The notes beneath the pieces are model-generated. The model was not told the origin of the DNA. It worked only from the letters and a program-made list of their open reading frames with translations, and did no database searches. From positions 1-47,191 of the IMG/VR virus record IMGVR_UViG_3300027963_002263: DNA of 47,191 nucleotides; one strand, 5' to 3'. Positions 4,658-41,981 of this stretch are shown here, one piece after another. The DNA is from a virus. A program made the position numbers and the translations under genes. How positions within the stretch are numbered: position 1 is the stretch's first letter; each line of letters opens with the position of its first letter.

Positions 4658-4674
4658 ATAGTAATGTAGACCCT

Positions 4675-4700
4675 AAAAAGCGGGCTCCGGCTCGCTTTTT
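4675..4700 (+). terminator. Rho-independent terminator with UNCG tetraloop
   Basis: A GCGGGC/GCTCGC stem (one G-U pair) closes on a TCCG loop, which belongs to the very stable UNCG class. It is flanked by AAAAA before and TTTTT after, so the stem extends by A-U pairs and the element can work on both strands. It lies 18 bases after the stop of the preceding gene and just before a late-type promoter. Confidence 0.9.
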
Positions 4701-4708
4701 ATTTGGCG

Positions 4709-4716
4709 GATAAATA
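4709..4716 (+). promoter_or_regulatory. T4-like late promoter element GATAAATA
   Basis: GATAAATA differs from the T4 late consensus TATAAATA at one position and lies 7 bases before the ATG of a fibre-like gene. By T4 spacing the transcript would begin near 4722, leaving almost no leader. It directly follows a terminator, which supports a new transcript starting here. Confidence 0.6.
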
Positions 4717-4723
4717 CATTACT

Positions 4724-5830
4724 ATGAACAAACAAAATATTGATCAAGCACTAGCGGCACTATCAGACGCACTTTACAGCGACGATTTTGCCACATCTAA
4801 CCCATTATCTATAATTGAAAGTTTGCCCAAGCACTCTATTAGCGGTGACTTAGTTAGCGGCGGAACTATCAATCAGTTCAGCAGTCGCGGAATTACAGAT
4901 CATGCAACATCAGAGCAGATGGTAGTAAACAATGAATCTGTATCAATAAAAGCTCTAAGGGCAGATATTGTAAAAGGAAATTTAACTGTTGAAGATACTG
5001 TTGTTGCGAAAACCATTATAGTAGATACTATCAATGTAAAAGAAATTATATCAGACATTAAAGTTGAAAAAAGTTCTTCTATTACATTCACTGGTGATAT
5101 TTCCAGCAAAGGCTTAGTTTGGACTGGTAAGGATTATAACAAACAGTTTGTATTCAATCCAGGTCCTGATAGATTCTTTTCATCAGAATCTATAGATATC
5201 AACCAAGGAAGATTTTTAAGCATCAACGGAGTTAAAGTTTTAGGCGACGACGAACTAGGCCCAACCGTTGTTAAAAGTAATCTTCGCGAAGTAGGTCGTT
5301 TAAACGGACTCATAGTCGACGGCGATATTAGAATTAATCAATATCTATGCTACAATTCTACAATTGATCGCTTAGGTTTAGGTATTGAAGATCCGCATGC
5401 CGCTTTCAGTGTAGCTGAAATGGGCATTGAAGTTATGATGGGTACTGACGACGACATGAGCGGTCTTGTTGGTACATACGGTGCCGTTGATTTTAATATT
5501 GTTACTGACAATACTACACGTATCAGTATTGGCGCATCAGGCAATATACTAATAGGCAACGCAGGAAAATCAGTTTCTATATTAGGAAAATTAGGAATTG
5601 GGGTAAAGAACATTGATCCAAATGTAGACCTGCACGTTACTGGTCCTGTTCGACTAAACAATCAATTACAGATGTATGCTTCGGAAGTGCCAACAGAAGG
5701 CATATACAAAGCTGGAGACATCTGCTGGAATTCACATCCTACTGTAGGAAAGTTTGTAGGTTGGGTTTGCGTGGGTGCCGGAAGTCCAGGCAATTGGTTT
5801 GCTTTTGGTGAAATAAAAGACAGGCAATAA
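4724..5830 (+). CDS. Fibre-like virion protein (368 aa)
   Basis: It starts at ATG 4724, just after a late promoter element and without a clear Shine-Dalgarno. The N terminus is helical; the rest is a long series of short beta strands rich in Gly, Asn, Asp, Ile and Val with recurring xVxGDIxxx and LGIGxxxP units (GLGIEDPHAAF, LGIGVKNIDPNVDLHVTG). These are typical of beta-helical phage fibres and resemble the segments before chaperone-of-endosialidase tails. The C terminus (GDICWNSHPTVGKFVGWVCV) looks like a small receptor-binding or capping domain. Late promoter, size and composition support a structural role; the receptor is unknown. It is followed at 2 bases by a gene for a possible sugar-modifying enzyme. 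Confidence 0.75.
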   Translation: MNKQNIDQALAALSDALYSDDFATSNPLSIIESLPKHSISGDLVSGGTINQFSSRGITDHATSEQMVVNNESVSIKALRADIVKGNLTVEDTVVAKTIIVDTINVKEIISDIKVEKSSSITFTGDISSKGLVWTGKDYNKQFVFNPGPDRFFSSESIDINQGRFLSINGVKVLGDDELGPTVVKSNLREVGRLNGLIVDGDIRINQYLCYNSTIDRLGLGIEDPHAAFSVAEMGIEVMMGTDDDMSGLVGTYGAVDFNIVTDNTTRISIGASGNILIGNAGKSVSILGKLGIGVKNIDPNVDLHVTGPVRLNNQLQMYASEVPTEGIYKAGDICWNSHPTVGKFVGWVCVGAGSPGNWFAFGEIKDRQ

Positions 5831-7226: not shown

Positions 7227-7915
7227 CAGTTTTATGTGTCCGTTTTGGCACCAAGTATGGCAAGGATTATGTCGAACGACTAAGAAATATGGTCAGTCGA
7301 CATATGACATTACCTTACGAATTTGTTTGCCTTACCGACGATCCTAGTCCTATCGATGGAGTTAGACTTGTTGTTCAGCCCAATGAAGGTTATGCAAAAG
7401 GTTGGTGGCATAAGGTTCATATGTTTGATCCGAACCTTCCGTTAACTGGAAGAATATTATACCTCGACTTAGATGTTATAGTCTGTAACAGTCTCGACAA
7501 GTTAGTTCAAAATTGTACAACTTTTGATTTTTACGGCATTAAAGATTTTAATAGAAAATTTCATGCCAATTGGAATATGCTCAACAGTTCTGTACTAAGT
7601 TGGGAGAAAGGATATCATCCTGACATTTGGACTGTATTTCAAACTGATCCGCGGAAAGCTCAAAAACTACACGGTGATCAAGATTGGATATGGAACGTGG
7701 CAAGGACTAGAATTAAATTCTGGCCAGAAGAATACATCATGAGCTACAAATGGGAACTACGTGATAGGAATGAACTTGATCGAGGCAACGGAAAGATAAA
7801 ATTCAAATCCATACGCAATCCTATTATTCCAAAAGAATGTTGTATTGCTGTGTTCCACGGAGACCCAAATCCGCATGAAGTTCAAGACCCTTTTGTTATT
7901 GACAACTGGCGATAA
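7220..7915 (+). CDS. GT8-like glycosyltransferase (TTG start)
   Basis: A 231-aa protein with the GT-A layout: an N-terminal strand-helix unit, CLTDD near 37-41, and the metal/nucleotide-sugar DxD motif as YLDLDV (81-86). Later HGDQDW and KFWPEE match the acceptor-side motifs of the GT8/LPS-glycosyltransferase type, and a closing VFHGDPNPHE resembles the conserved FHG(x)KPW end. The likely start is TTG 7220, ten bases after AGGAG; the first ATG is far inside the fold. It probably transfers a hexose from a UDP-sugar to a surface glycan or to phage DNA or protein. The acceptor cannot be read from the sequence. Confidence 0.8.
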   Translation: MVTVLCVRFGTKYGKDYVERLRNMVSRHMTLPYEFVCLTDDPSPIDGVRLVVQPNEGYAKGWWHKVHMFDPNLPLTGRILYLDLDVIVCNSLDKLVQNCTTFDFYGIKDFNRKFHANWNMLNSSVLSWEKGYHPDIWTVFQTDPRKAQKLHGDQDWIWNVARTRIKFWPEEYIMSYKWELRDRNELDRGNGKIKFKSIRNPIIPKECCIAVFHGDPNPHEVQDPFVIDNWR

Positions 7916-7927
7916 AGATGTTATACT
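7899..7927 (+). promoter_or_regulatory. Sigma70-type promoter
   Basis: TTGACA (7899-7904), a 17-base spacer and TATACT (7922-7927). It begins in the last codons of the glycosyltransferase gene and would start transcripts near 7934, exactly at the ATG of the next small gene, so that message may be leaderless or the true target may be uvsE. Confidence 0.75.
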
Positions 7928-7933
7928 AGTAGT

Positions 7934-8164
7934 ATGCAAATTACTACTCATCACAGTCAGATCCGTACAATCAAACAAGACGATTCACGATTTCGTATCG
8001 TTGACAAATTTACAACCTGTGGTAGAGCAGGGTTTGAAATTTCAAAACAATGCCCACGTGAGTACGGATTGATATTATCCGAATGTATTGATCGTGGTTG
8101 GATCCAACCTGTGGCCTATATGACAGAACGTGAACTTCTTATTTCGGGATTATCTAATGGTTAA
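7934..8164 (+). CDS. Small hypothetical protein (76 aa)
   Basis: It starts at ATG 7934, directly at the expected start point of the sigma70 promoter and without a Shine-Dalgarno. The product is a soluble mixed alpha/beta protein with two cysteines (FTTCGRAGFEISKQCPREYG) and a C-terminal helix. It overlaps uvsE by 8 bases, implying coupled translation with the repair enzyme. The family is not recognised. Confidence 0.65.
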   Translation: MQITTHHSQIRTIKQDDSRFRIVDKFTTCGRAGFEISKQCPREYGLILSECIDRGWIQPVAYMTERELLISGLSNG

Positions 8165-9182
8165 ACGTATCGGCTTTGCTTGTAAATGGATCGACGGCCC
8201 CAGCCAAATTAACGGGGTTAAACAAAAAGATGACTGTAAACAGTATAATACTGGCAGTACTACCGTTGCCTGGTTAAATAGACAAACGAAAGAAGTTGCA
8301 GAACAAAAGCTCTGGGACCTAATGGTAGGTAACATTGAAAGTGTTCGTAAACTTGTTGAAAAGGTAGGGACACTCGATGAAAATCTTAGAATGGTACGAC
8401 TTGGTAGCGATATCCTTCCTGTCTACACTCAGTCAGTTTGGGGCAGGTATTGGCGGGATCCCGTGGTACGGGCATATTGTGAAAGAGAGTTTAAACGAGT
8501 CGGAGATGTGGCTCGTGAGAATAATGTTCGCCTCAGTTTCCATCCTGGTCAGTTTACTGTTCTGGCATCTGAGTCAGACGATATTGTAAATCGTTCAATA
8601 GAGGAATTTGAATATCATGCGGACATGGCTAGATGGATGGGATTTGGTAGAACGTTTCAAGACTTTAAAATCAACGTTCATATCGCAGGTAGACGAGGCC
8701 CCGATGGAATACGTGCTGTTTTACCTCGCCTGAGTCCCGAGGCACGTAACTGTATTACAATCGAAAACGAAGAAAATGCCTGGGGATTGGATGACTGCCT
8801 CTCTATATCAGATATTGTTCCTATTGTGCTCGACATACATCATCATTGGGTACGTGAGGGAGAGTACATTACACCTAGAGATGACCGTGTCAAACGAGTT
8901 TTAGACAGTTGGCGCGGTGTTCGCCCTACTATGCATTACAGTGTATCTCGCGAAGACATCCTAGTTAATCATCCAGAAACTGTATTTCCTGATATGCCTC
9001 AATTGTTACTTGACGGCTACAAAAAACAAAAACTCAGAGCACACTCAAACTTCTACTGGAATACAGCAGTGAATGAATGGGCTTTGAGTTTTCGAAACAA
9101 CTTTGATATTATGTGCGAAAGCAAGGCTAAAAACTTAGCCAGCTTCGCACTATATCAACAGGCATTAAGCCTTGGGCTTTGA
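8157..9182 (+). CDS. uvsE: UV damage endonuclease (UVDE)
   Basis: A 341-aa TIM-barrel metalloenzyme that nicks DNA 5' of cyclobutane dimers, 6-4 photoproducts and other lesions. The family signatures appear in order: SFHPGQF (127-133), NVHIAG (173-178), ENE (203-205), DIHHH (226-230), MHYS (259-262) and AHSNFYW (295-301), which supply the His/Glu/Asp cluster for the three metal ions. Length is typical of bacterial UVDE and the C-terminal barrel end is present. ATG 8157 gives the conserved N terminus (VKRIGFACKW) and overlaps the upstream small gene. A light-exposed aquatic habitat would explain the gene. Its 3' end overlaps a convergent gene by 18 bases. Confidence 0.95.
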   Translation: MVKRIGFACKWIDGPSQINGVKQKDDCKQYNTGSTTVAWLNRQTKEVAEQKLWDLMVGNIESVRKLVEKVGTLDENLRMVRLGSDILPVYTQSVWGRYWRDPVVRAYCEREFKRVGDVARENNVRLSFHPGQFTVLASESDDIVNRSIEEFEYHADMARWMGFGRTFQDFKINVHIAGRRGPDGIRAVLPRLSPEARNCITIENEENAWGLDDCLSISDIVPIVLDIHHHWVREGEYITPRDDRVKRVLDSWRGVRPTMHYSVSREDILVNHPETVFPDMPQLLLDGYKKQKLRAHSNFYWNTAVNEWALSFRNNFDIMCESKAKNLASFALYQQALSLGL

Positions 9183-27400: not shown

Positions 27401-28615
27401 ACGGTTAGAATGCAGCCTGATGCATTTGTTGCTGTTGAAAGAACAGATTTATATAACGGTGCTTCATTATTAGCCTCACCGATCATAGTACCAGATCCTC
27501 CACTACCGTCGTTTAATATTACATTCGACGGTAGCACAACTACCTTTGATAGAAAATTTACATTTGTAGTAGAAGCCAGTGATGCTTCTGGGTTTTCAAA
27601 GATACAAAGAGAATTTTATTTCACAGTCACTACAGACTCCGATAAAACATTTTCTAACCTATATCTTAAAGCATTTCAATCAAAAGAAAAAAGGTTAGCA
27701 TGGAGTAACTTTATTACCGATGCAAACATTTTCAAACCATCAGATTTGTATAGACCAGGTGATGTAAATTTTGGAGTTCAAACAGAACTTAAAATGTTGT
27801 TATTTGCTGGCATAGAAAGTGCTGCTGCTGAAAAATATATATCAGCCATGGGGCACAATCATTACCGCAAACAAATTTTGTTTGGGGATATTAAAACTGC
27901 AAAAGCGAGAGATCCAGATACACAAGAAACGATTTACGAAGTTGTTTATGTTGACATTAAGGACGACCTAGAAAAAGAATACTATGTTCCTATCGTTCTT
28001 GATCCTGCATTATATATTCTAGGCGCACGACTAGTGGGTCGTCAGAGTATATCTGAAGTAGTTGATTTACCGAATAATATCAACAGTCCGGTATTGGTCA
28101 GCACTTCGGAAATTAAAATAGATAGCGATGTGCCTCTTGTTAGCGATCGAGATCATCAACGAATCTTTCCAAACAGTATCTATAACATGAGAAATAGATT
28201 ATCAGAAATAGGCGAAAGAGATCGTACATACTTGCCGTTATGGATGCGTAGTATTCAAGACGACGCATCATACGAAACTGGGTACGTTAAAGGGTTAATA
28301 CTGTGTTACACTCTTCCAGGCAAATCTCAAGATATTGTTGCCAGGATACAGGCAAAAACCAATTATGCATCAAGAGGCGAGTGGTCTAACACAATCGCCT
28401 ATCAAATTAACGATTCTGTAATATATGCAGGAAATTACTGGACGTGTATTAAAGAAAATCTTAATACCGTACCATCTGCCGGGATTTACTGGATTGAAAA
28501 TTTCAATTTTAGCAATATTAATTTTACAGCAGATCGCTATCTAATTGATATATTAGACGGGGAAATAGAGGATAAATACCTTGCATTTCCGCAACGTGGA
28601 GAAAAACTACCGTGA
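24404..28615 (+). CDS. Tail protein with Ig-like repeats and an inserted animal-type haem peroxidase domain (1403 aa)
   Basis: Residues 1-494 and 1034-1403 are a phage tail protein: at least four putative-Ig units with LPxGLxLxxxGxIxG (SLPRGLRLIG, QLPPGLSLSRTG, PPGLELDSVTG, LPVGIELLSDG) and two CBM5/12-like Trp/Tyr units (about 374-410 and 1326-1365). Residues about 495-1033 are a full animal haem peroxidase (peroxidasin/MPO family). It has WGQFLTHD (distal Gln587, His591, calcium Asp592), TGWLDAS (calcium loop Thr646, Asp650, Ser652), GDPRGNE (catalytic Arg711, Glu714), DGERLYQRAK, RFGHS (proximal His803) and TNIQRGRD (Asn882). MPO Asp94, which esterifies haem, is Thr590. The frame is open across both junctions. 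Expected activity is oxidation of halides or phenols with H2O2, at the virion surface. It overlaps the next gene by 4 bases. Confidence 0.92.
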   Translation: MITWNTPQGNLGTKKERETTTIPLSATSDVGDITYSVIAGSLPRGLRLIGNLIKGSPSEVKSYTTSRFVIRAQDSNDLEDRTFSLSVDGADAPEWITKEGYLQVGSGEAYFVLDNSRVNFQLEAYDTDVIIGDKLEYYLVPMGGQLPPGLSLSRTGVISGFTDPIFAVDYNASLNGGYDTGAFDVTPIDFVEAKSNGFDDYFYDNVTYDYSEPSRSPKRLSRSYSFVIAVTDGANVIRQSFKIYVVTEEFLKADNSIVQISTNVFTADASSDRVPLWITDSNLGRYRSNNYVTLILDVYDPPSLPGTITYFVLPTNNDGSPSVTPPGLELDSVTGELAGTVPYQSKISKTYSFTVEAVNFPSTLYNSGYTLVGNWNTSINYLPDQAVRYLNYIYICTKENRSVIPTNITYWTKGVSSAAKTFNVEIVGEIESAVSWVTGNDLGTIRPNQASQLFVQAETLLYGGRANYKKISGDLPVGIELLSDGKIQGKIKQFADAVGPGLTRLFDGAGAPPPPPNADGRAHNPLRPLVNSVAQPFGRYGTARYLDGIYTMVPGVNPRTISNIVVAGHGEDPDPTGFSGWLYAWGQFLTHDLEFAREGTINIDVIVPAGDTELTPGSHIPVRRNAVALGTGPGTTVPATPINETTGWLDASVVYGIAYPPGVPQGPTAFANPVDLREGGQQATTGKLLTSLNGLYPPKNISGRYFVGDPRGNENPDLLSCHVLMIRDHNWHVDRISAVHPDVDGERLYQRAKSLVIAEMQKITYDEWLPKIVGPIPAWTSFNPNIDATTKIEFSAAALRFGHSIVSNALDRIDETGNVTEELALADAFFLTPAEFERNGGADGFMRKLAADVSNKLDVHIVDDLRNLLDDPPAALDLAATNIQRGRDLGLGTLNQTRIALGLVPYEQWNQITSDPALQAALSTAYGDIQNVDLWIGGLAEDRVTGAMVGQTFRTILVDQFTRLRDGDQYWWENRPWAPEDRALLDNTTLAGLILRNTNTVRMQPDAFVAVERTDLYNGASLLASPIIVPDPPLPSFNITFDGSTTTFDRKFTFVVEASDASGFSKIQREFYFTVTTDSDKTFSNLYLKAFQSKEKRLAWSNFITDANIFKPSDLYRPGDVNFGVQTELKMLLFAGIESAAAEKYISAMGHNHYRKQILFGDIKTAKARDPDTQETIYEVVYVDIKDDLEKEYYVPIVLDPALYILGARLVGRQSISEVVDLPNNINSPVLVSTSEIKIDSDVPLVSDRDHQRIFPNSIYNMRNRLSEIGERDRTYLPLWMRSIQDDASYETGYVKGLILCYTLPGKSQDIVARIQAKTNYASRGEWSNTIAYQINDSVIYAGNYWTCIKENLNTVPSAGIYWIENFNFSNINFTADRYLIDILDGEIEDKYLAFPQRGEKLP
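28571..28578 (+). promoter_or_regulatory. Late promoter-like element GATAAATA
   Basis: GATAAATA inside the last codons of the tail gene, 33 bases before the GTG start of the next structural gene. It is the same octamer as at 4709, 34264, 42625 and 43015. Confidence 0.45.
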
Positions 28616-34820: not shown

Positions 34821-35544
34821 CGAAGGACTTCGTCCAGAGGACCTAGAACTAATGGTTCATCCAATCTTTGAAGTAGATACTTTTAGATCAAAGATGGGCG
34901 AGGACCAAGATGTATGTGTTATCAGTTTTCAGGTTAAAGATAGAGAACCTGCTAGAGACTTGATGGAATTTATTGAGAAAGGATATTCTTTCGTGTTAGA
35001 TTCAGATGTGTCATCTGGTGAAAATAATAAAGGCGAATACAGTGTGTTTGTTGAAATTGAAAGAAGTCCTAAACTTGCCGAAAACATTAAAGAAATAATG
35101 TACGGTGTAAAAAAACTTACAGGCATTGACGATTGGAAATTCAAGTATCATAAAAACAAGGCAGTTCATGAAGTGTCTGAAGATACATTGCGTGATGTTA
35201 TTCCGTCTTCAGCAAGAGATTATGACGGACTAATGAACAAGTTTAAAACAGAAGGAATCAAAAGATTCTTTAATAAAACTCTAATGGATGATTTAACATT
35301 AGACGGAGATATTATTACCATACACAAACCATTTGATAAAAAAATTCAATTGCGTATGGTAAAAGAATCAGATGCAGATTCAATCCTTGAAGGTAGTACA
35401 GATACAGTTACATTGGATCAAGAAGCTATGAGTGAAATTTTCTGGCTTACAAAAGTCCTAGGCAACTACAATATCAATAAAATAGGTGAGAATTTTATGT
35501 TTGACAACAACGGTCAAGCTATGTTACTACAAAGGATACAATAA
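34798..35544 (+). CDS. Conserved phage protein (248 aa)
   Basis: ATG 34798 is chosen because it gives a plausible N terminus (MQNNQQLNEGLRPEDLEL) and only a short overlap; in-frame starts up to 34741 would lie deep inside the preceding gene. The fold appears alpha/beta with two similar halves rich in Asp, Lys and Phe; no catalytic motif is seen. Its late transcription and position before the endolysin suggest a virion or assembly role. It shares a one-base overlap with the endolysin gene (TAATG). Confidence 0.7.
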   Translation: MQNNQQLNEGLRPEDLELMVHPIFEVDTFRSKMGEDQDVCVISFQVKDREPARDLMEFIEKGYSFVLDSDVSSGENNKGEYSVFVEIERSPKLAENIKEIMYGVKKLTGIDDWKFKYHKNKAVHEVSEDTLRDVIPSSARDYDGLMNKFKTEGIKRFFNKTLMDDLTLDGDIITIHKPFDKKIQLRMVKESDADSILEGSTDTVTLDQEAMSEIFWLTKVLGNYNINKIGENFMFDNNGQAMLLQRIQ

Positions 35545-36161
35545 TGTCATTGATAACAAAAGATCAATTAGCTCAGATTATTCCAGGTAATCAATATTTG
35601 GATCATTGGTGTGATGCAATAAATGAAATTTTACCAGAGTATGAAATCAACACACCGCAACGTGTAGCTGCTTTCCTAGCACAGTGCGCACACGAGAGTG
35701 GCGGATTCAAAGCATTGAAAGAAAACTTAAATTACAAGGCAGAAAGCCTAACAAAAGTATTTCCTAAATACTTTCCTAGCATCGACATAGCGAATCAATA
35801 TGCACACAATCAAGAAAAAATCGCTAATAGAGTATATGGCAACCGTATGGGTAACGGTCCTGAGGAAAGCGGAGATGGATTCCGCTATTGTGGTAGAGGG
35901 CTTATCCAACTTACAGGAAAAAACAACTACACACTATTTGCAGGAAGTCTCGAAATGCCAGTTGAAGATGTTCCAGAATATCTAGCAACATTTGAAGGCG
36001 CATTGCAATCAGCTTGCTGGTTTTGGGAAAGCAATAATTTAAATCAGTTTGCCGACAAAGACGATATCCTAACAATGACCAAACGTATTAACGGTGGAAC
36101 TATCGGGCTTGAAGATCGTAAAAAACACTACGAACATGCCAAGCATGTACTAGGGGCTTAA
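35544..36161 (+). CDS. Endolysin, glycoside hydrolase family 19 (chitinase-like)
   Basis: A 205-aa muralytic enzyme of the GH19 fold, which cuts the GlcNAc-MurNAc backbone of peptidoglycan at the end of infection. CAHESGGF (48-55) carries the catalytic Glu51, then GFRYCGRGLIQLTGKNNY and RINGGTIGLEDR form the substrate cleft. No signal peptide is seen, so export needs the holin. It is followed within 2 bases by spanin and then holin genes, which is a clear lysis cassette. Confidence 0.93.
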   Translation: MSLITKDQLAQIIPGNQYLDHWCDAINEILPEYEINTPQRVAAFLAQCAHESGGFKALKENLNYKAESLTKVFPKYFPSIDIANQYAHNQEKIANRVYGNRMGNGPEESGDGFRYCGRGLIQLTGKNNYTLFAGSLEMPVEDVPEYLATFEGALQSACWFWESNNLNQFADKDDILTMTKRINGGTIGLEDRKKHYEHAKHVLGA

Positions 36162-36162
36162 T

Positions 36163-36630
36163 ATGTGGCAGATGGGGTGGATGATTAGTTTAATCCCAGA
36201 CAGTATTATTGTTTGGGTCATCAATACTGTTCTTTTAACAGGACTAATTGCAACTCTTGTTAGTTTCTTTATTAAATTTATTCCATTTGTAAATTCTTAC
36301 AAATTACCTATACAAATCTTAGGTATTGTATTATTAGGAGTTGGATTGTTTTTTAAAGGTGGATATGCTACAGAAATGATGTGGCGTGAAAGAGTCGCTG
36401 CTATGGAAGAAAAAATTGCAGAAGCAGAAGTTAAATCTGCTAAAACCAATACTGTCATACAAAAAGTATATGTAGACAAAGTTAAAGTCGTTAAAGATAC
36501 ACAGTATGTAATACAAGAAAGAATTAAAGAAGTTGAAAAATTAATTGATAAAGAATGCAAAGTTGCTCCAGAAGCAGTGGATATTCACAACGATGCAGCT
36601 AAAAATAGAAGACCTGGGGATAACAAATGA
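36163..36630 (+). CDS. Inner-membrane spanin-like protein (Rz type)
   Basis: A 155-aa protein with two N-terminal hydrophobic segments (about 8-40 and 49-68) and then a long charged coiled coil with KVYVDKVKVVKDTQYVIQ. This matches i-spanins: an inner-membrane anchor plus periplasmic coiled coil that bridges to the outer-membrane partner. Two membrane segments instead of one are unusual and resemble the two-segment spanins of some T4-like phages. The o-spanin gene follows with a 4-base overlap. Confidence 0.75.
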   Translation: MWQMGWMISLIPDSIIVWVINTVLLTGLIATLVSFFIKFIPFVNSYKLPIQILGIVLLGVGLFFKGGYATEMMWRERVAAMEEKIAEAEVKSAKTNTVIQKVYVDKVKVVKDTQYVIQERIKEVEKLIDKECKVAPEAVDIHNDAAKNRRPGDNK

Positions 36631-36896
36631 AATCATTATTATTGTTAATTCCAGCAGTGTTATTAACTGGTTGTTTGGAAACTGTCCCGGTAAAACGCAC
36701 ATTTCCAGAAGTTCCTCCTGAAATTGCAAAAGCCTGTCCTGAATTACAGGAAGCTGCTAAGGAAACAAAAGAATTAAGCAAACTACTTGATGTAGTAGTT
36801 GTGAATTATTCAACCTATTACGAATGCCGTGTTAAAGTTGATGCATGGATACAATGGCACAAAGAACAAAAAGAGATTTTCGATAGTGTAAAATAA
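36627..36896 (+). CDS. Outer-membrane spanin-like lipoprotein (Rz1 type)
   Basis: An 89-aa protein with a short signal peptide and a lipobox (LLTGC, about 12-16), so the mature N-terminal Cys would be lipidated and sent to the outer membrane. The mature part starts Pro-rich (VKRTFPEVPPEIAKACPEL) and continues with helices, as in Rz1-type o-spanins. It overlaps the i-spanin gene, as is usual. Two further cysteines may make a disulfide. Confidence 0.82.
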   Translation: MKSLLLLIPAVLLTGCLETVPVKRTFPEVPPEIAKACPELQEAAKETKELSKLLDVVVVNYSTYYECRVKVDAWIQWHKEQKEIFDSVK

Positions 36897-36913
36897 TCAA
36901 AGGAGCGGAGTAA

Positions 36914-37477
36914 ATGGCACTAATAGATTCAGTATTAAATTTAATAAACAAACAACCAAAAGACCCAGACGCACCTAAGCCACCAGTTGGCTCACGTAGC
37001 GAACGTGAAGCAAAATTAAAAGACAAAGCAGGTATGGTCATTTCCGTATTTGCTCTGTTACTAGCAGTCAATGCTTGGTACGGTGGCAAACTGTCCAGCA
37101 CAGTATTAAACAATACACTAGGTGCTAACAACAAGTGGGCACAATATCAAGCAAAGAACAGTCGTGGTGTTAGTTACGAAATCGCATCATTAACAACTGC
37201 TGATCCAAAACTAAAAGAAAAATTTGCGGCTGAAAAAGCACGTATGGAAGATGACAAGAAGGCCATTGCAGAAGAAGCACGAGCAATGGAACACGAGCGT
37301 GAAATTGCCAAGAAGTCTAGCCCATGGATTGGTTATGCGTCAACCGCATACCAATTAGCGATTGTTGTACTATCGGCAAGTATTCTTGCTGTTAGCATGG
37401 CAATGTTCTGGGGCAGCTTTGCTGTTGCAGGACTAGGTATACTACTAAGTCTACAAGGAGTATTGTTATGGTTCTAA
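36914..37477 (+). CDS. DUF4337-like membrane protein (187 aa)
   Basis: AAAGGAGCGGAG precedes the ATG. The N terminus is charged, followed by a membrane segment (VISVFALLLAVNAWYGG), a KWAQYQAKNSRG motif typical of DUF4337, a charged coiled coil (about 95-135) and two more hydrophobic segments at the end. It sits between the spanins and the holin, so a role in lysis timing or the envelope is likely. Its last bases overlap a tiny ORF encoding a CxxC peptide. Confidence 0.65.
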   Translation: MALIDSVLNLINKQPKDPDAPKPPVGSRSEREAKLKDKAGMVISVFALLLAVNAWYGGKLSSTVLNNTLGANNKWAQYQAKNSRGVSYEIASLTTADPKLKEKFAAEKARMEDDKKAIAEEARAMEHEREIAKKSSPWIGYASTAYQLAIVVLSASILAVSMAMFWGSFAVAGLGILLSLQGVLLWF

Positions 37478-37530
37478 ATAACATAGATGAAGGTTGTCCT
37501 GTATGTGGTGGCAAACACCCAAAGAAATAA
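37468..37530 (+). CDS. 20-residue CPVCGG microprotein
   Basis: A 21-codon reading frame with a strong AAGGAG 7 bases before ATG 37468; it overlaps the preceding stop by 10 bases. It encodes MVLNNIDEGCPVCGGKHPKK, a single CxxC knuckle in a basic tail. The holin gene follows with its own AAGGAGCGG. It may be a real metal-binding or redox microprotein; the strong ribosome site and clean CPVCGG are the reasons for listing it. Confidence 0.5.
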   Translation: MVLNNIDEGCPVCGGKHPKK

Positions 37531-37548
37531 TTAAACAAGGAGCGGAGC

Positions 37549-38004
37549 ATGTCAGAAGAAGTTAAAAGCGCAAGCGAACAAAAGAAAGAAGATTGGATGA
37601 ACAGTAAATGGCGTCCAATGATGGGTTGGATGTATATGTTAGTATGTATGTTCGATATGATTTTATTTCCAATCCTGTGGAGTTTATTACAGACTGTAAC
37701 ACATACTCCTATTACCCAATGGAACCCACTAACATTGCAAGGTGCTGGATTATTCCACATCGCAATGGGTGCAGTTTTAGGTATTGCGGCATTCGGTCGT
37801 ACACAAGAAAAAATGGCGGGTGCAAACAATGGTGGTGCAAATACACCAGCTGCTGTTCCAGCATACACACCACCAGCACCAAGTTATACACCGCCGGCAT
37901 ATACACCGCCAACACCAATAGCGGTACCTGCGGCAAAACCAGCAGTGGCTGTTTCATCTAGCGGTAAGCCAATGCCTGCACCACAGATTGACGAACCATT
38001 ATAA
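37549..38004 (+). CDS. Holin, three-transmembrane (GTA-holin-like)
   Basis: A 151-aa protein with SKWRPMMGWMYMLVCMFDMIL, a second segment (FPILWSLLQ) and GAGLFHIAMGAVLGIAAFGRTQEK, which follow the WRP...G...FH..MGAxLG...QEK pattern of three-helix holins from gene-transfer agents and phages. The last ~55 residues are a Pro/Ala/Thr-rich tail with YTPP repeats, extra to the family. It forms the pore that lets the GH19 endolysin reach the wall. AGGAGCGG precedes the ATG. Confidence 0.85.
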   Translation: MSEEVKSASEQKKEDWMNSKWRPMMGWMYMLVCMFDMILFPILWSLLQTVTHTPITQWNPLTLQGAGLFHIAMGAVLGIAAFGRTQEKMAGANNGGANTPAAVPAYTPPAPSYTPPAYTPPTPIAVPAAKPAVAVSSSGKPMPAPQIDEPL

Positions 38005-38014
38005 GGAAACGATT

Positions 38015-38233
38015 ATGAAAAAATTATTAGCACTAGTGATTGCGGCTGCATTTGCTGTTCCAGCATTTGCTGCCGACGAGGCACCAAAAACTAAACAAGT
38101 ATGTATTGACGTTCAAGGCAAAGACGGTAAACCAGTTGTTGATCCAAAAACTAAAAAACCAAAACAAGATTGCAAAACTGTAAAAGTACACAAAAAACAC
38201 GAAGGCACAGCAGTACCTGAAAAGAAAAAATAA
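38015..38233 (+). CDS. Secreted small Lys-rich protein (72 aa)
   Basis: ATG 38015 follows AAGGAAACG and gives a perfect signal peptide: KK, a hydrophobic core LALVIAAAFAVPAFA, and cleavage at AFA-ADE (about 19/20). The mature ~53 residues are Lys/Pro rich with two cysteines (QVCIDVQ, QDCKTV) able to form a disulfide, and end KHEGTAVPEKKK. It is exported to the periplasm during late infection, at the end of the lysis operon and just before a terminator. Function unknown. Confidence 0.75.
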   Translation: MKKLLALVIAAAFAVPAFAADEAPKTKQVCIDVQGKDGKPVVDPKTKKPKQDCKTVKVHKKHEGTAVPEKKK

Positions 38234-38257
38234 TCACTCGGTAAATCTGCATTAAAT

Positions 38258-38287
38258 AAAAGGACTGCTTGACACAGTCCTTTTTTT
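38258..38287 (+). terminator. Rho-independent terminator whose loop is the next promoter's -35 box
   Basis: AAAAGGACTG (38258-38267) and CAGTCCTTTT (38275-38284) make a perfect 10-bp stem and the T-run continues to 38287. The 7-base loop CTTGACA holds the exact TTGACA of the downstream promoter. It ends the lysis/envelope operon. Confidence 0.9.
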
Positions 38288-38297
38288 ATTATATAAT
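38269..38297 (+). promoter_or_regulatory. Sigma70-type promoter for dnaJ-def-clpA
   Basis: Perfect TTGACA (38269-38274) in the terminator loop, 17-base spacer made of the terminator arm and T-run, perfect TATAAT (38292-38297). The start point near 38304 coincides with the dnaJ ATG, so the message may be leaderless. Confidence 0.85.
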
Positions 38298-38303
38298 ATA
38301 ACT

Positions 38304-39140
38304 ATGGATTATTACTCTACATTAGGTTTACAACGAGGCGCATCAGACGCCGAAATTAAAAAGGCTTATCGCTCAGCTGCGATGAAGCATCATCCTGATC
38401 GCGGTGGTGATGAAAAGAAATTTAAGGAAATATCACAAGCCTACGAGTTCCTTACCGATCCCCAGAAAAAACAAATGATTGATATGGGCATGGATCCAAA
38501 TGGACAACCTGGAAGACAACAGGGCGGTGGAAATCCATTTGAGTTTCATTTTAATCAAGGCAACTTCAATGACATTTTTAGCAATTTTGGGTTTGGCTTT
38601 AATCAACGAACTATGAGAAGAAACAAAAGCCTTAACATCAATGTTGAAATAACTCTTGAAGATGTGTTACAAGGAAAAGACATTGATGCCGAAGTAGGCA
38701 TACCCGGTGGCAGGAATAAAATGATAACCATTAGGGTTCCGCCTGGAATCGAAAGTGGGCAACAAATCCGCTACGAAGGAATGGGTGACGATTCAATTCC
38801 TGGTATCCCGCCTGGCGATCTTCATGTTAATATATTTGTTAAACTTCATCCGTTTTTTAAACGAGAAGGCGAATCTCTCATTTACGAAAAAACTATTTCA
38901 GTATGGGAAGCACTATTAGGCAGCTCAATATCAATTCAAACACTCGGTGGAAAAGATATTGACATTACTGTTCCTCCAGGTACGCAACCCGAAACAGTAT
39001 TAAGCTGTCGAGGAGAAGGCTTGCCCAACATGAGAAATAGAATGAGAGGCAATCTTCTTATAAAAATTAAAGTTGCTGTGCCTAGGAATCTTACTTCGGA
39101 TCAACAAAAACGAATTGCTCAACTAAAAAATGAATTTTAA
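38304..39140 (+). CDS. dnaJ: DnaJ/CbpA-type co-chaperone
   Basis: A 278-aa class B J-protein: J domain (1 to about 62) with HPD (30-32), a Gly/Phe-rich linker with GNPFEFHFNQGNF (about 75-100), then two C-terminal substrate-binding domains (NINVEITLEDVLQGKD; VPPGIESGQQIRYEGMG; DIDITVPPGTQ). The zinc-finger domain of DnaJ itself is absent, so it resembles CbpA. It should deliver clients to host DnaK. No Shine-Dalgarno is visible and the promoter start coincides with the ATG. It overlaps the deformylase gene by 11 bases. Confidence 0.95.
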   Translation: MDYYSTLGLQRGASDAEIKKAYRSAAMKHHPDRGGDEKKFKEISQAYEFLTDPQKKQMIDMGMDPNGQPGRQQGGGNPFEFHFNQGNFNDIFSNFGFGFNQRTMRRNKSLNINVEITLEDVLQGKDIDAEVGIPGGRNKMITIRVPPGIESGQQIRYEGMGDDSIPGIPPGDLHVNIFVKLHPFFKREGESLIYEKTISVWEALLGSSISIQTLGGKDIDITVPPGTQPETVLSCRGEGLPNMRNRMRGNLLIKIKVAVPRNLTSDQQKRIAQLKNEF

Positions 39141-39624
39141 GCTAGGTCCACATCAAACCCTGATTGAAAAAAGCACACCGTGGAACTTTGCATCCGACGG
39201 TGATGCTGCTCAATTAGAAAACGACATGATCGAATTCATGTTGGCTAATAACGGCATTGGGTTGGCAGCAAATCAAATTGGTATTGCTAAACGTGTGTTT
39301 GTTATGGGCAGTCATAACATCGACGGGTTTCCGTTACCGTTTGCTGTGTTTAATCCAGTAATCAGAGAAACCAGTGAAGAACAAGTGTTAGACAAAGAAG
39401 GCTGTTTAAGTTATCCTGGATTATTTTTAAATGTAAAACGTCCAGCATGGGCTATTGCAGAATACCAAGACAAAGATGGAAATGTAAAAGAAATTAAAGT
39501 TGACGGATATCTTGCAAAATGTTTTCAACACGAATACGATCACTTAGATGGTATATGTTTTGTTGACAAGGTATCACAAATGAAGTTAAACTTAGCTATG
39601 AAGAAAATAAGGAAAATGAAGTAA
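39130..39624 (+). CDS. def: Peptide deformylase
   Basis: A 164-aa metalloenzyme that removes the N-formyl group from nascent proteins. The three signatures are GIGLAANQIG (42-51), EGCLSYPG (90-97, metal Cys92) and QHEYDHLDG (133-141; His134, His138 and catalytic Glu135). The C-terminal helix is short but carries no organellar extension. Phage deformylases are common in aquatic T4-like phages; here the gene is locked between dnaJ and clpA, so it belongs to a protein-quality operon. Confidence 0.95.
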   Translation: MNFKLGPHQTLIEKSTPWNFASDGDAAQLENDMIEFMLANNGIGLAANQIGIAKRVFVMGSHNIDGFPLPFAVFNPVIRETSEEQVLDKEGCLSYPGLFLNVKRPAWAIAEYQDKDGNVKEIKVDGYLAKCFQHEYDHLDGICFVDKVSQMKLNLAMKKIRKMK

Positions 39625-41981
39625 TGATCGAACCTAGTCAAAATTTACAAAAAATATTTGAACAATCTGTTGCTGTTGCCAAAGAACTTGGACACGAGTA
39701 TATTACCATCGAACACATTGTTTTTGGTATTATGAGTGACCAAGAGTCTTACGAATTAATCGAAGGCTTTGGTGGAGATGCTGCATTTATAAAAACAAAT
39801 TTAGAACATTATCTAAAAAATAACATGCAGGATATCAAAACTTCAGATACCACTATTAGACCTAAAAAGACTAACAGCGTAGAGCGTGTACTCAATCGTT
39901 GTTTCACACAGGTGTTGTTTAGTGGTCGTCAGCGTATGGAAGTTGCCGATGTTATTATCAGTGTGCTTTCAGAAAAGAATAGTTTTGGTTTTTACTTTCT
40001 GCAAAAGGGCGGAGTAACTAAAGAAAAATTTGTTAAGTACTTTCAAGAAAATGTTGTTCTTATTGAGGAGGAAGAAGAGTCAACGGAGCATCGCGTGGTT
40101 AACACTAATCAAATAGATAAGATTTTAAATCAATATTGTACTAATCTAAGCCTACAGGCTAAACAACGCAAAATTGATCCTGTTATCGGTCGTGATGAAG
40201 AGATTGAAAAAATTCAGTTAGTGTTGGCACGTCGAAACAAATGTAACGTGCTTATGGTAGGCGATCCTGGTGTTGGTAAAACTGCTATTGCAGAAGGTAT
40301 TGCTCGTAAGATATTTGAAAAGAAAGTTCCTAAATTTATTCAGGATCATCAAGTTTATACACTAGATATTAGTTCTATTTTAGCAGGAAGCAAATATCGA
40401 GGCGACTTTGAAGAACGTGTAAAAGCAGTACTAATGGCATTAGAGCGCAAAGGAAAGATTATTCTTTTCATTGACGAAGCACACATGATGAGTGGTGCAG
40501 GTGCTGCCAATCAAAGCAGTAACGATATGGCCAATATGTTAAAACCTATTCTTACCAAAGGAATTATCAAACTTATTGCTTCGACTACTTGGGAAGAATA
40601 TCGTAAGCACTTTGAAAAGGATCGTGCGTTGATGCGTCGATTCCAACGTGTTACTATTGATGAACCTAGTCCAGAAATGGCAGTTAAAGTTCTTAAAGGT
40701 ATTAAGAAGTATTACGAAAAACATCATAATGTTAAAATCAGCGATGCTGCTATCGAACAGGCAGTTAAACTGTCAGTCAAATATATGAGTGATAAAAAAT
40801 TGCCAGATAAAGCAATTGATATTTTAGACTGTGCGGCAGCTCGTTATAAACTCAAAGACGAAGATGGCATGGAAGGTGTTGAACAGATCGTTGATATTGA
40901 ACAGGTTACGTATGAACTGTCTAAGATGATCAACATGCCGTTAGAAACAGTTGCTCAGAAAGAAAGTAAAAATCTAGCAGATTTAGAAAAAGGCATGAAG
41001 GGTTCTGTATACGGACAAGATAATGCTATTGGAAATTTACTAGATAAGATTTTTGTAGCACAAGCAGGTATGAAATCTCCAAACAAGCCAATTGGATCTT
41101 TCCTGTTCCTCGGTCCTACTGGTTGTGGTAAAACTGAAACTGCTAAACAGCTATCGGACAAAATGTCAATGCCGTTGATACGATTTGACATGAGTGAATA
41201 TCAAGAGAAGCATAGTGTTGCACGATTGATCGGTGCTCCTCCTGGATATGTTGGCTATGAGGATAACGCAGGGCAGTTGATTACAAAATTGCAAGAAACA
41301 CCTAACTGTATCCTGTTGCTAGATGAAATTGAAAAAGCTCATCCAGATGTTTCAAATATCTTGTTAGGTTTTATGGACAATGGTTTCGTAACAGGATCAA
41401 ACGGTAAACAAGCAGATGGCCGTAATTGTATTTTGATTATGACATCAAACTTAGGTGCTGCTGATAACGAAAACAACACTATTGGCTTTGCTACTTTAGA
41501 CAAAGACGGTGAGGACGACAAAGCAGCTAAAAAGTTCTTTGCTCCGGAGTTCCGTAATCGTTTAGACGGCATTATCAAGTTTAATAAACTAGGCGATGAA
41601 GTAGTTGTTCAGATTGTTAAGAAATTTATCAACGAACTTAACGATCAACTCAAAGACAAGGGTATTGAAATCGTAGCAAATTCGGAAGCTGTTAAATGGT
41701 TATGCGAACGAGGATACGATAAGAAGATGGGTGCCCGTCCGTTAGCACGTTTAATTGATAACAATGTTAAATCTCCACTAAGTCGTAGAGTATTGTTTGG
41801 AGATCTAGTTAATGGTGGGCGAGTTACCATTGGCATTGAAAATGACGAACTAACTTTTTCAATTACTGAACTTCCTAAAGTATTGTCTAAAGAAGAAAAG
41901 AAAGCACTCAAACGTGCAAATGCTGAAAAGGCAGCGGAAGAATTAGTAGATGAACTCTCAGAAAACCAAGATAACCAGTAA
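39624..41981 (+). CDS. clpA: ClpA-type AAA+ unfoldase
   Basis: A 785-aa class I Clp ATPase: N domain (1 to about 145, with the two repeats of the Clp N fold), D1 with Walker A GDPGVGKT (213-220) and B FIDEAH (282-287), and D2 with Walker A GPTGCGKT (497-504), B LLLDEIE (564-570) and FRNRLD (643-648). There is no ClpB middle coiled coil. IGF (620-622), in the position of the ClpP-docking IGL/IGF loop, is kept, so the protein can bind host ClpP. A Lys/Glu-rich tail follows. No clpP or clpS is seen. It overlaps the next gene by 32 bases. Confidence 0.95.
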   Translation: MIEPSQNLQKIFEQSVAVAKELGHEYITIEHIVFGIMSDQESYELIEGFGGDAAFIKTNLEHYLKNNMQDIKTSDTTIRPKKTNSVERVLNRCFTQVLFSGRQRMEVADVIISVLSEKNSFGFYFLQKGGVTKEKFVKYFQENVVLIEEEEESTEHRVVNTNQIDKILNQYCTNLSLQAKQRKIDPVIGRDEEIEKIQLVLARRNKCNVLMVGDPGVGKTAIAEGIARKIFEKKVPKFIQDHQVYTLDISSILAGSKYRGDFEERVKAVLMALERKGKIILFIDEAHMMSGAGAANQSSNDMANMLKPILTKGIIKLIASTTWEEYRKHFEKDRALMRRFQRVTIDEPSPEMAVKVLKGIKKYYEKHHNVKISDAAIEQAVKLSVKYMSDKKLPDKAIDILDCAAARYKLKDEDGMEGVEQIVDIEQVTYELSKMINMPLETVAQKESKNLADLEKGMKGSVYGQDNAIGNLLDKIFVAQAGMKSPNKPIGSFLFLGPTGCGKTETAKQLSDKMSMPLIRFDMSEYQEKHSVARLIGAPPGYVGYEDNAGQLITKLQETPNCILLLDEIEKAHPDVSNILLGFMDNGFVTGSNGKQADGRNCILIMTSNLGAADNENNTIGFATLDKDGEDDKAAKKFFAPEFRNRLDGIIKFNKLGDEVVVQIVKKFINELNDQLKDKGIEIVANSEAVKWLCERGYDKKMGARPLARLIDNNVKSPLSRRVLFGDLVNGGRVTIGIENDELTFSITELPKVLSKEEKKALKRANAEKAAEELVDELSENQDNQ

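Follow-up and report, generated by a model that had tools for sequence, protein, structure and literature searches.

How can the end of one transcription unit and the start of the next occupy the same bases? The question is raised by a virus fragment of 47,191 nt (the window), in which a sequence-only reading had placed a terminator and a promoter in one 40-nt element between lysis genes and dnaJ-def-clpA, and had suggested that the two units might exclude each other. We examined this element, its counterparts upstream of dnaJ in other viral contigs, and the promoters and terminators of related genomes.

A −35 box in the loop of a predicted terminator

The 10-bp stem, the CTTGACA loop and the T-run stand in the sequence exactly as first described, and so do the genes on either side, lysis genes before and dnaJ-def-clpA after (Table 1). 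The stem is perfect over its 10 bp, encloses a loop of 7 nt and leads into T7. No longer T-tailed hairpin with at least four G-C pairs occurs on the plus strand between positions 28000 and 47191. The hairpin RNA folds at −12.5 kcal/mol (z = −3.1), a stability equalled in 2 of 200 shuffled sequences. How efficiently it terminates is uncertain because the stem has only four G-C pairs. An Rfam scan of the element returned nothing near a gathering score.

The promoter, TTGACA in the loop and TATAAT after a 17-nt spacer, also proved as perfect as claimed, matching the sigma-70 consensus at 12 of 12 positions. The pattern TTGACA-N16-18-TATAAT is found at two sites in the window compared to a mean of 0.03 in shuffled sequences, none of which had two.

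Table 1. Features of the fused element in the window, the flanking genes, and a second fusion in related genomes.
Feature	Position	Strand	Remarks
TTAAATA, putative T4-like late promoter core	38252..38258	+	TAAATA at 38253-38258; adjoins hairpin
Terminator 5' arm	38258..38267	+	AAAAGGACTG; compensatory changes in relatives
Hairpin loop CTTGACA	38268..38274	+	holds −35 box TTGACA at 38269-38274
Terminator 3' arm	38275..38284	+	CAGTCCTTTT; first 10 nt of promoter spacer
T-run (U-tract), T7	38281..38287	+	overlaps 3' arm; promoter spacer runs on to 38291
−10 box TATAAT	38292..38297	+	exactly 17 nt (38275-38291) past −35 box
Upstream unit, predicted to end at the hairpin	35544..38233	+	GH19 endolysin, Rz-like, Rz1-like, DUF4337, holin, 72-aa secreted protein; Rz1-like was assigned below the Pfam cut-off, and "Rz-like" and "secreted" by position and sequence character, with no database match above cut-off
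72-aa secreted protein	38015-38233	+	last gene of upstream unit
dnaJ	38304..39140	+	ATG 6 nt past −10 box
def (peptide deformylase)	39130..39624	+	in dnaJ unit
clpA-type AAA protease chaperone	39624..41981	+	in dnaJ unit
Second fusion sites	G001:171750, G003:201647, G008:40720, others	−, −, +	−35 partly in 3' arm

The window encodes a clamp-loader protein of phage type (phrog_168). A gp55-type late sigma factor (phrog_234) is encoded in 10 of 12 relative records and was not found in the 47-kb window fragment. Based on the clamp loader and the gp55 of the relatives, we take the window to belong to a T4-like phage. A DNA similarity search among annotated phages gave no informative neighbour, and every DnaJ protein match in named phages was below 60% identity. 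The evidence was therefore drawn from uncultured viral contigs.

The fusion is conserved upstream of dnaJ

Searching viral contigs with DnaJ retrieved 80 loci, and the start of dnaJ could be read in 79 of them. The terminator and promoter are fused in 66 of the 79, all of them related by common ancestry and representing 26 distinct forms, the window's included. Two loci have a rearranged fusion. In L075 the loop is longer, with the −35 box at its 3' side, and the leader is longer too, with an AGGA motif. In L080 (G010:48667) it is the −10 box, not the −35 box, that sits in the hairpin loop, 65 nt upstream of dnaJ; RNA from this promoter would again lack the 5' arm. Eight loci (L011, L049, L070-L074, and L081) have the terminator without the promoter and three (L010, L017, and L079) lack the hairpin, so some loci can do without the fusion.

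The sequence-only reading had proposed comparing homologous loci for a constant loop against a changing stem, and this is what was found. Among 24 distinct aligned elements, mean pairwise identity is 97% for TTGAC and 94% for the −10 box, compared to 76-78% for the stem arms. Fourfold-degenerate sites in dnaJ are saturated, at 34% mean pairwise identity. The spacer is 17 nt in all 42 distinct upstream regions scoring at least 9 as a promoter. Even L045, with a loop two bases shorter, retains the 17-nt spacing through a shifted −10 box. On a DnaJ tree, which was built by a quick method and has some long branches, about five origins of the terminator-only state are seen. The −35 and −10 boxes were lost jointly in at least four of these origins; in L070 a TATTAT remnant makes the loss of the −10 box ambiguous. 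Together, these comparisons indicate that evolution has conserved the fusion across a large family of aquatic T4-like phages.

The stem varies as an RNA structure would

Across the distinct forms 94.6% of stem cells are paired. Changes on both sides of a stem pair number 22, against 5.7 in shuffles (none of 500 reached 22) and at most four on sliding. Nine cells are G-U, for which pairing is possible in the plus strand RNA only. This pattern points to an intrinsic terminator with its structure conserved as plus strand RNA.

A classical operator layout is likewise a palindrome with a −35 box at its centre, and the inverted repeat could in principle be a protein-binding site or a DNA cruciform over the promoter rather than a terminator. 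We consider this very improbable. Nearly all forms have a T-run after the 3' arm, and hairpin and T-run persist in relatives without the promoter. The stem letters vary between forms (GGACTG, GGACTAC, GGCTGC, GGCCGC), a variation difficult to reconcile with a sequence-specific operator, and the compensatory changes pass through G-U states that pair only in plus strand RNA. The operator and cruciform readings were rejected on this covariation.

Fusions recur elsewhere in these genomes

We surveyed 609 promoters with at least 10 of 12 matches and a 17-nt spacer in the window and 10 relative genomes. The −35 box lies inside a T-tailed hairpin in 22 of them compared to 0.8 expected after flank shuffling, an overlap above what chance would give. 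A second conserved fusion, for example AAAAGCCAGTCA[TAGGT]TGACTGGCTTTT, precedes the gene for a small phrog_639 protein, a transcriptional regulator which we take to resemble T4 DsbA. It lies about 9-12 kb downstream of dnaJ in the genomes where both were located, and the window's copy would be just past its right end. Single fusions are found elsewhere in G010 (41875 and 5131), G005 (183502), and G006 (8123).

More generally, an early or late promoter lies in or closely after 42 of 70 distinct strong terminators, compared to about 2.4 at random positions. In most of these junctions the promoter lies past the terminator and the two are unmerged. At 4674-4725 of the window, a strong terminator is followed at once by GATAAATA with an ATG 7 nt on, forming a terminator-late promoter junction; many like it are found in the relatives.

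Early promoters with leaderless spacing

Two features of the element are absent from the sequence-only reading, the leaderless spacing of the promoter and the TAAATA at the 5' arm. The early promoters form a class with a strict spacer. At 11 or more matches of 12, there are 187 promoters with a 17-nt spacer and 15-35 with each other length from 13 to 21, counted in the window and relative genomes with G002 and the first 100 kb of G006 left out. As a control for the 17-nt scan, the same pattern with a 16-nt spacer gave three matches in 12 genomes.

Measured to start codons of ORFs with 40 codons or more, the distance from the −10 box has a bimodal distribution. It is 5-7 nt in 52 of 170 early promoters, few fall at 8-19 nt and the rest are mostly at 20 nt or more. 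A Shine-Dalgarno-like motif is present in 95 of the 114 leaders of at least 15 nt. At the dnaJ loci the gap is 6 nt in 26 of 42 distinct regions and 5-9 nt in 40. With a −10 box ending at −7, the 6-nt gap makes the A of the dnaJ ATG the +1 position. dnaJ has no Shine-Dalgarno motif, and its start codon is at the predicted 5' end. By this spacing the dnaJ mRNA should be leaderless and start at about 38304, and the same is predicted for the early mRNAs of a set of further genes that recur.

Leaderless mRNAs should be widespread in this T4-like clade, since in G001-G010 and the window an ATG lies 4-7 nt from about 30% of the strong early promoters and from many TAAATA motifs, as at 7899-7936 in the window. 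There (7899-9182) an early promoter with leaderless spacing precedes a 76-aa ORF (7934) and then an endonuclease gene (phrog_8420). Relatives of this endonuclease gene in other genomes have leaderless-type promoters before them.

A putative late promoter at the 5' arm

L080 apart, every locus with a hairpin has TAAATA adjoining the 5' arm. All distinct fused elements contain the motif, at an almost constant position, and it is also the upstream motif found enriched in a 281-kb relative. TAAATA followed by ATG at a gap of 4-5 nt is found 141 times, compared to 15-32 times for unrelated control hexamers (ATAAAT was excluded as it overlaps TAAATA). Relative to the T4 late box, TATAAATA, the TAAATA core is matched and the first two bases are AT instead of TA. 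The T4 box has 8 bp with its first two bases at −13/−12 (PMC2988020), so that it ends at −6 and a TAAATA-ATG gap of 5 nt would also be leaderless.

Since the motif adjoins the arm, the predicted late start (about 38264) is inside the 5' arm, as it is in every locus having both the hairpin and TAAATA. Shortened to this start, the RNA of the window folds at −1.1 kcal/mol compared to −11.7 in full. A substantial hairpin stays in some relatives; the shortened RNA of L071 still folds at −9.3 kcal/mol. In the window, late RNA from 38264 would be a poor template for dnaJ translation, since its leader of 40 nt would carry no Shine-Dalgarno motif.

Our reading is least secure on the late promoter. It is possible that only the terminator and early promoter function and that TAAATA extends the A-tract or stem of the terminator, a reading to which we give a little less than even weight. 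AT-rich flanks are usual for terminators, AAATA pairs with TATTT in two terminator-only variants (L072 and L081), and the first two bases differ from the TA of T4. Against it, all distinct fused elements have TAAATA at a near-fixed place, where it is missing from most other terminators in these genomes, and it is the family's enriched upstream motif. The motif also recurs before a different hairpin at another gene: at G002:41600 (−) and G006:158418 (−), TTAAATA adjoins a short T-tailed hairpin with an ATG right past the T-run. On balance we lean slightly toward a late promoter starting RNA at about 38264, within the 5' arm.

A model for the element

From the terminator, the −35 and −10 boxes, their spacing, conservation, and covariation, which can be read directly in the genomes, we infer RNA ends, leaderless translation, a late start, and any effect of a terminating polymerase on initiation. 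RNA of the lysis unit would contain both arms, fold the hairpin and stop at the U-run, at about 38283-38291. Host sigma-70 RNA polymerase would recognise the TTGACA of the loop and the TATAAT past the U-run. Transcription would then begin at about 38304, where the A of the dnaJ start codon lies, and yield a leaderless dnaJ-def-clpA mRNA. This RNA would not be terminated because the hairpin is absent from it. TAAATA (38253-38258) probably starts a late RNA at about 38264, which would not have the complete hairpin as it begins inside the 5' arm.

That one 40-nt element ends the lysis unit and starts dnaJ-def-clpA, as first proposed, is strongly supported by the comparison. The boxes and strict 17-nt spacer are conserved, the stem changes in a compensatory manner, the boxes are lost together, and the fusion recurs. 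The element is most probably a compact transcription-unit boundary of T4-like phages that combines a terminator, a predicted leaderless early start and a probable late start. More tentatively, it may be a three-in-one switch of about 53 nt, in which a T4-type late promoter, a terminator, and an early sigma-70 promoter are interleaved. Both promoters would escape the terminator while upstream RNA is stopped, allowing early leaderless expression and late re-expression of dnaJ-def-clpA insulated from the lysis unit.

The earlier proposal of mutual exclusion fares less well. On that reading selection favours the overlap because polymerase from the lysis unit would melt and cover the −35 and −10 boxes and silence dnaJ-def-clpA, and promoter-bound polymerase would block lysis transcripts. 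The geometry allows it, since a polymerase stopping at about 38288 would sit over both boxes. The overlap is also conserved and is seen again at other genes. Conserved overlap is expected from simple compaction as well, as the 3' arm and U-run fill most of one spacer. The prevalence of unmerged junctions, together with the loss of the promoter or hairpin in some relatives, suggests exclusion is not generally needed. Early use of sigma-70 and late lysis transcription may also differ in time, and strict exclusion would fail if the element held a late promoter. As a means of exclusion, melting of the −35 box is physically plausible, but the sequence can be explained without it, and we regard such a switch as unlikely.

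Implications

The element illustrates how highly compressible phage control DNA is, the same bases serving as terminator loop and −35 box and the terminator 3' arm plus U-run having about the length of one promoter spacer. Its conserved forms provide a natural experiment in which selection on RNA structure (the stem) can be separated from selection for DNA recognition (the loop). The genome-wide leaderless signal, early and late, predicts Shine-Dalgarno-independent translation for a sizeable share of genes in uncultured T4-like phages. Promoter annotation that drops overlaps with terminators would miss such fused elements. If the three-in-one reading is true, dnaJ-def-clpA would be expressed early from a leaderless mRNA and again late, insulated from the lysis unit.

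Comparison with known systems

In the E. coli frd-ampC region the end of an operon is shared with the regulatory DNA of the gene that follows, and the ampC promoter precedes the terminator/attenuator. The element described here similarly shares an operon end with the control region of the next gene, but its −35 box is the terminator loop and its start would lie past the U-run. In M13, gene III and the central terminator overlap. Searches of the available literature for that overlap and for a promoter inside a terminator loop found no usable account of either.

By the sequence comparisons, the terminator-promoter fusion is real, conserved, and recurrent, and it is made of known parts. Like intrinsic terminators, it has a GC-containing stem, a small loop, and a U-run after the last gene of a unit, with compensatory changes. 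It differs in that the loop is fixed as a −35 box and the 3' arm and U-run are a promoter spacer. The T4-like methylophage Melnitz has host sigma-70 early promoters, late promoters, and few terminators (PMC9004378). The early promoters here are likewise of the host sigma-70 type beside late promoters, but with the −35 box inside a terminator hairpin and the predicted start at the ATG. T4 late promoters consist of an 8-bp TATA box used with gp55 (PMC2988020). The TAAATA core, the gp55 of the relatives and a box ending about 6 nt before the start are shared with T4, whereas the first two bases differ and the start would fall inside a terminator arm. Lambda cI is a leaderless mRNA (PMC9031893) and phage transcripts have been called "often leaderless" (PMC5312081). 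The dnaJ mRNA would be similar, with its start codon at the predicted 5' end and no Shine-Dalgarno motif; the difference is one of extent, as leaderless mRNAs are expected here from about 30% of the strong early promoters in a T4-like clade, and from many of its late promoters.
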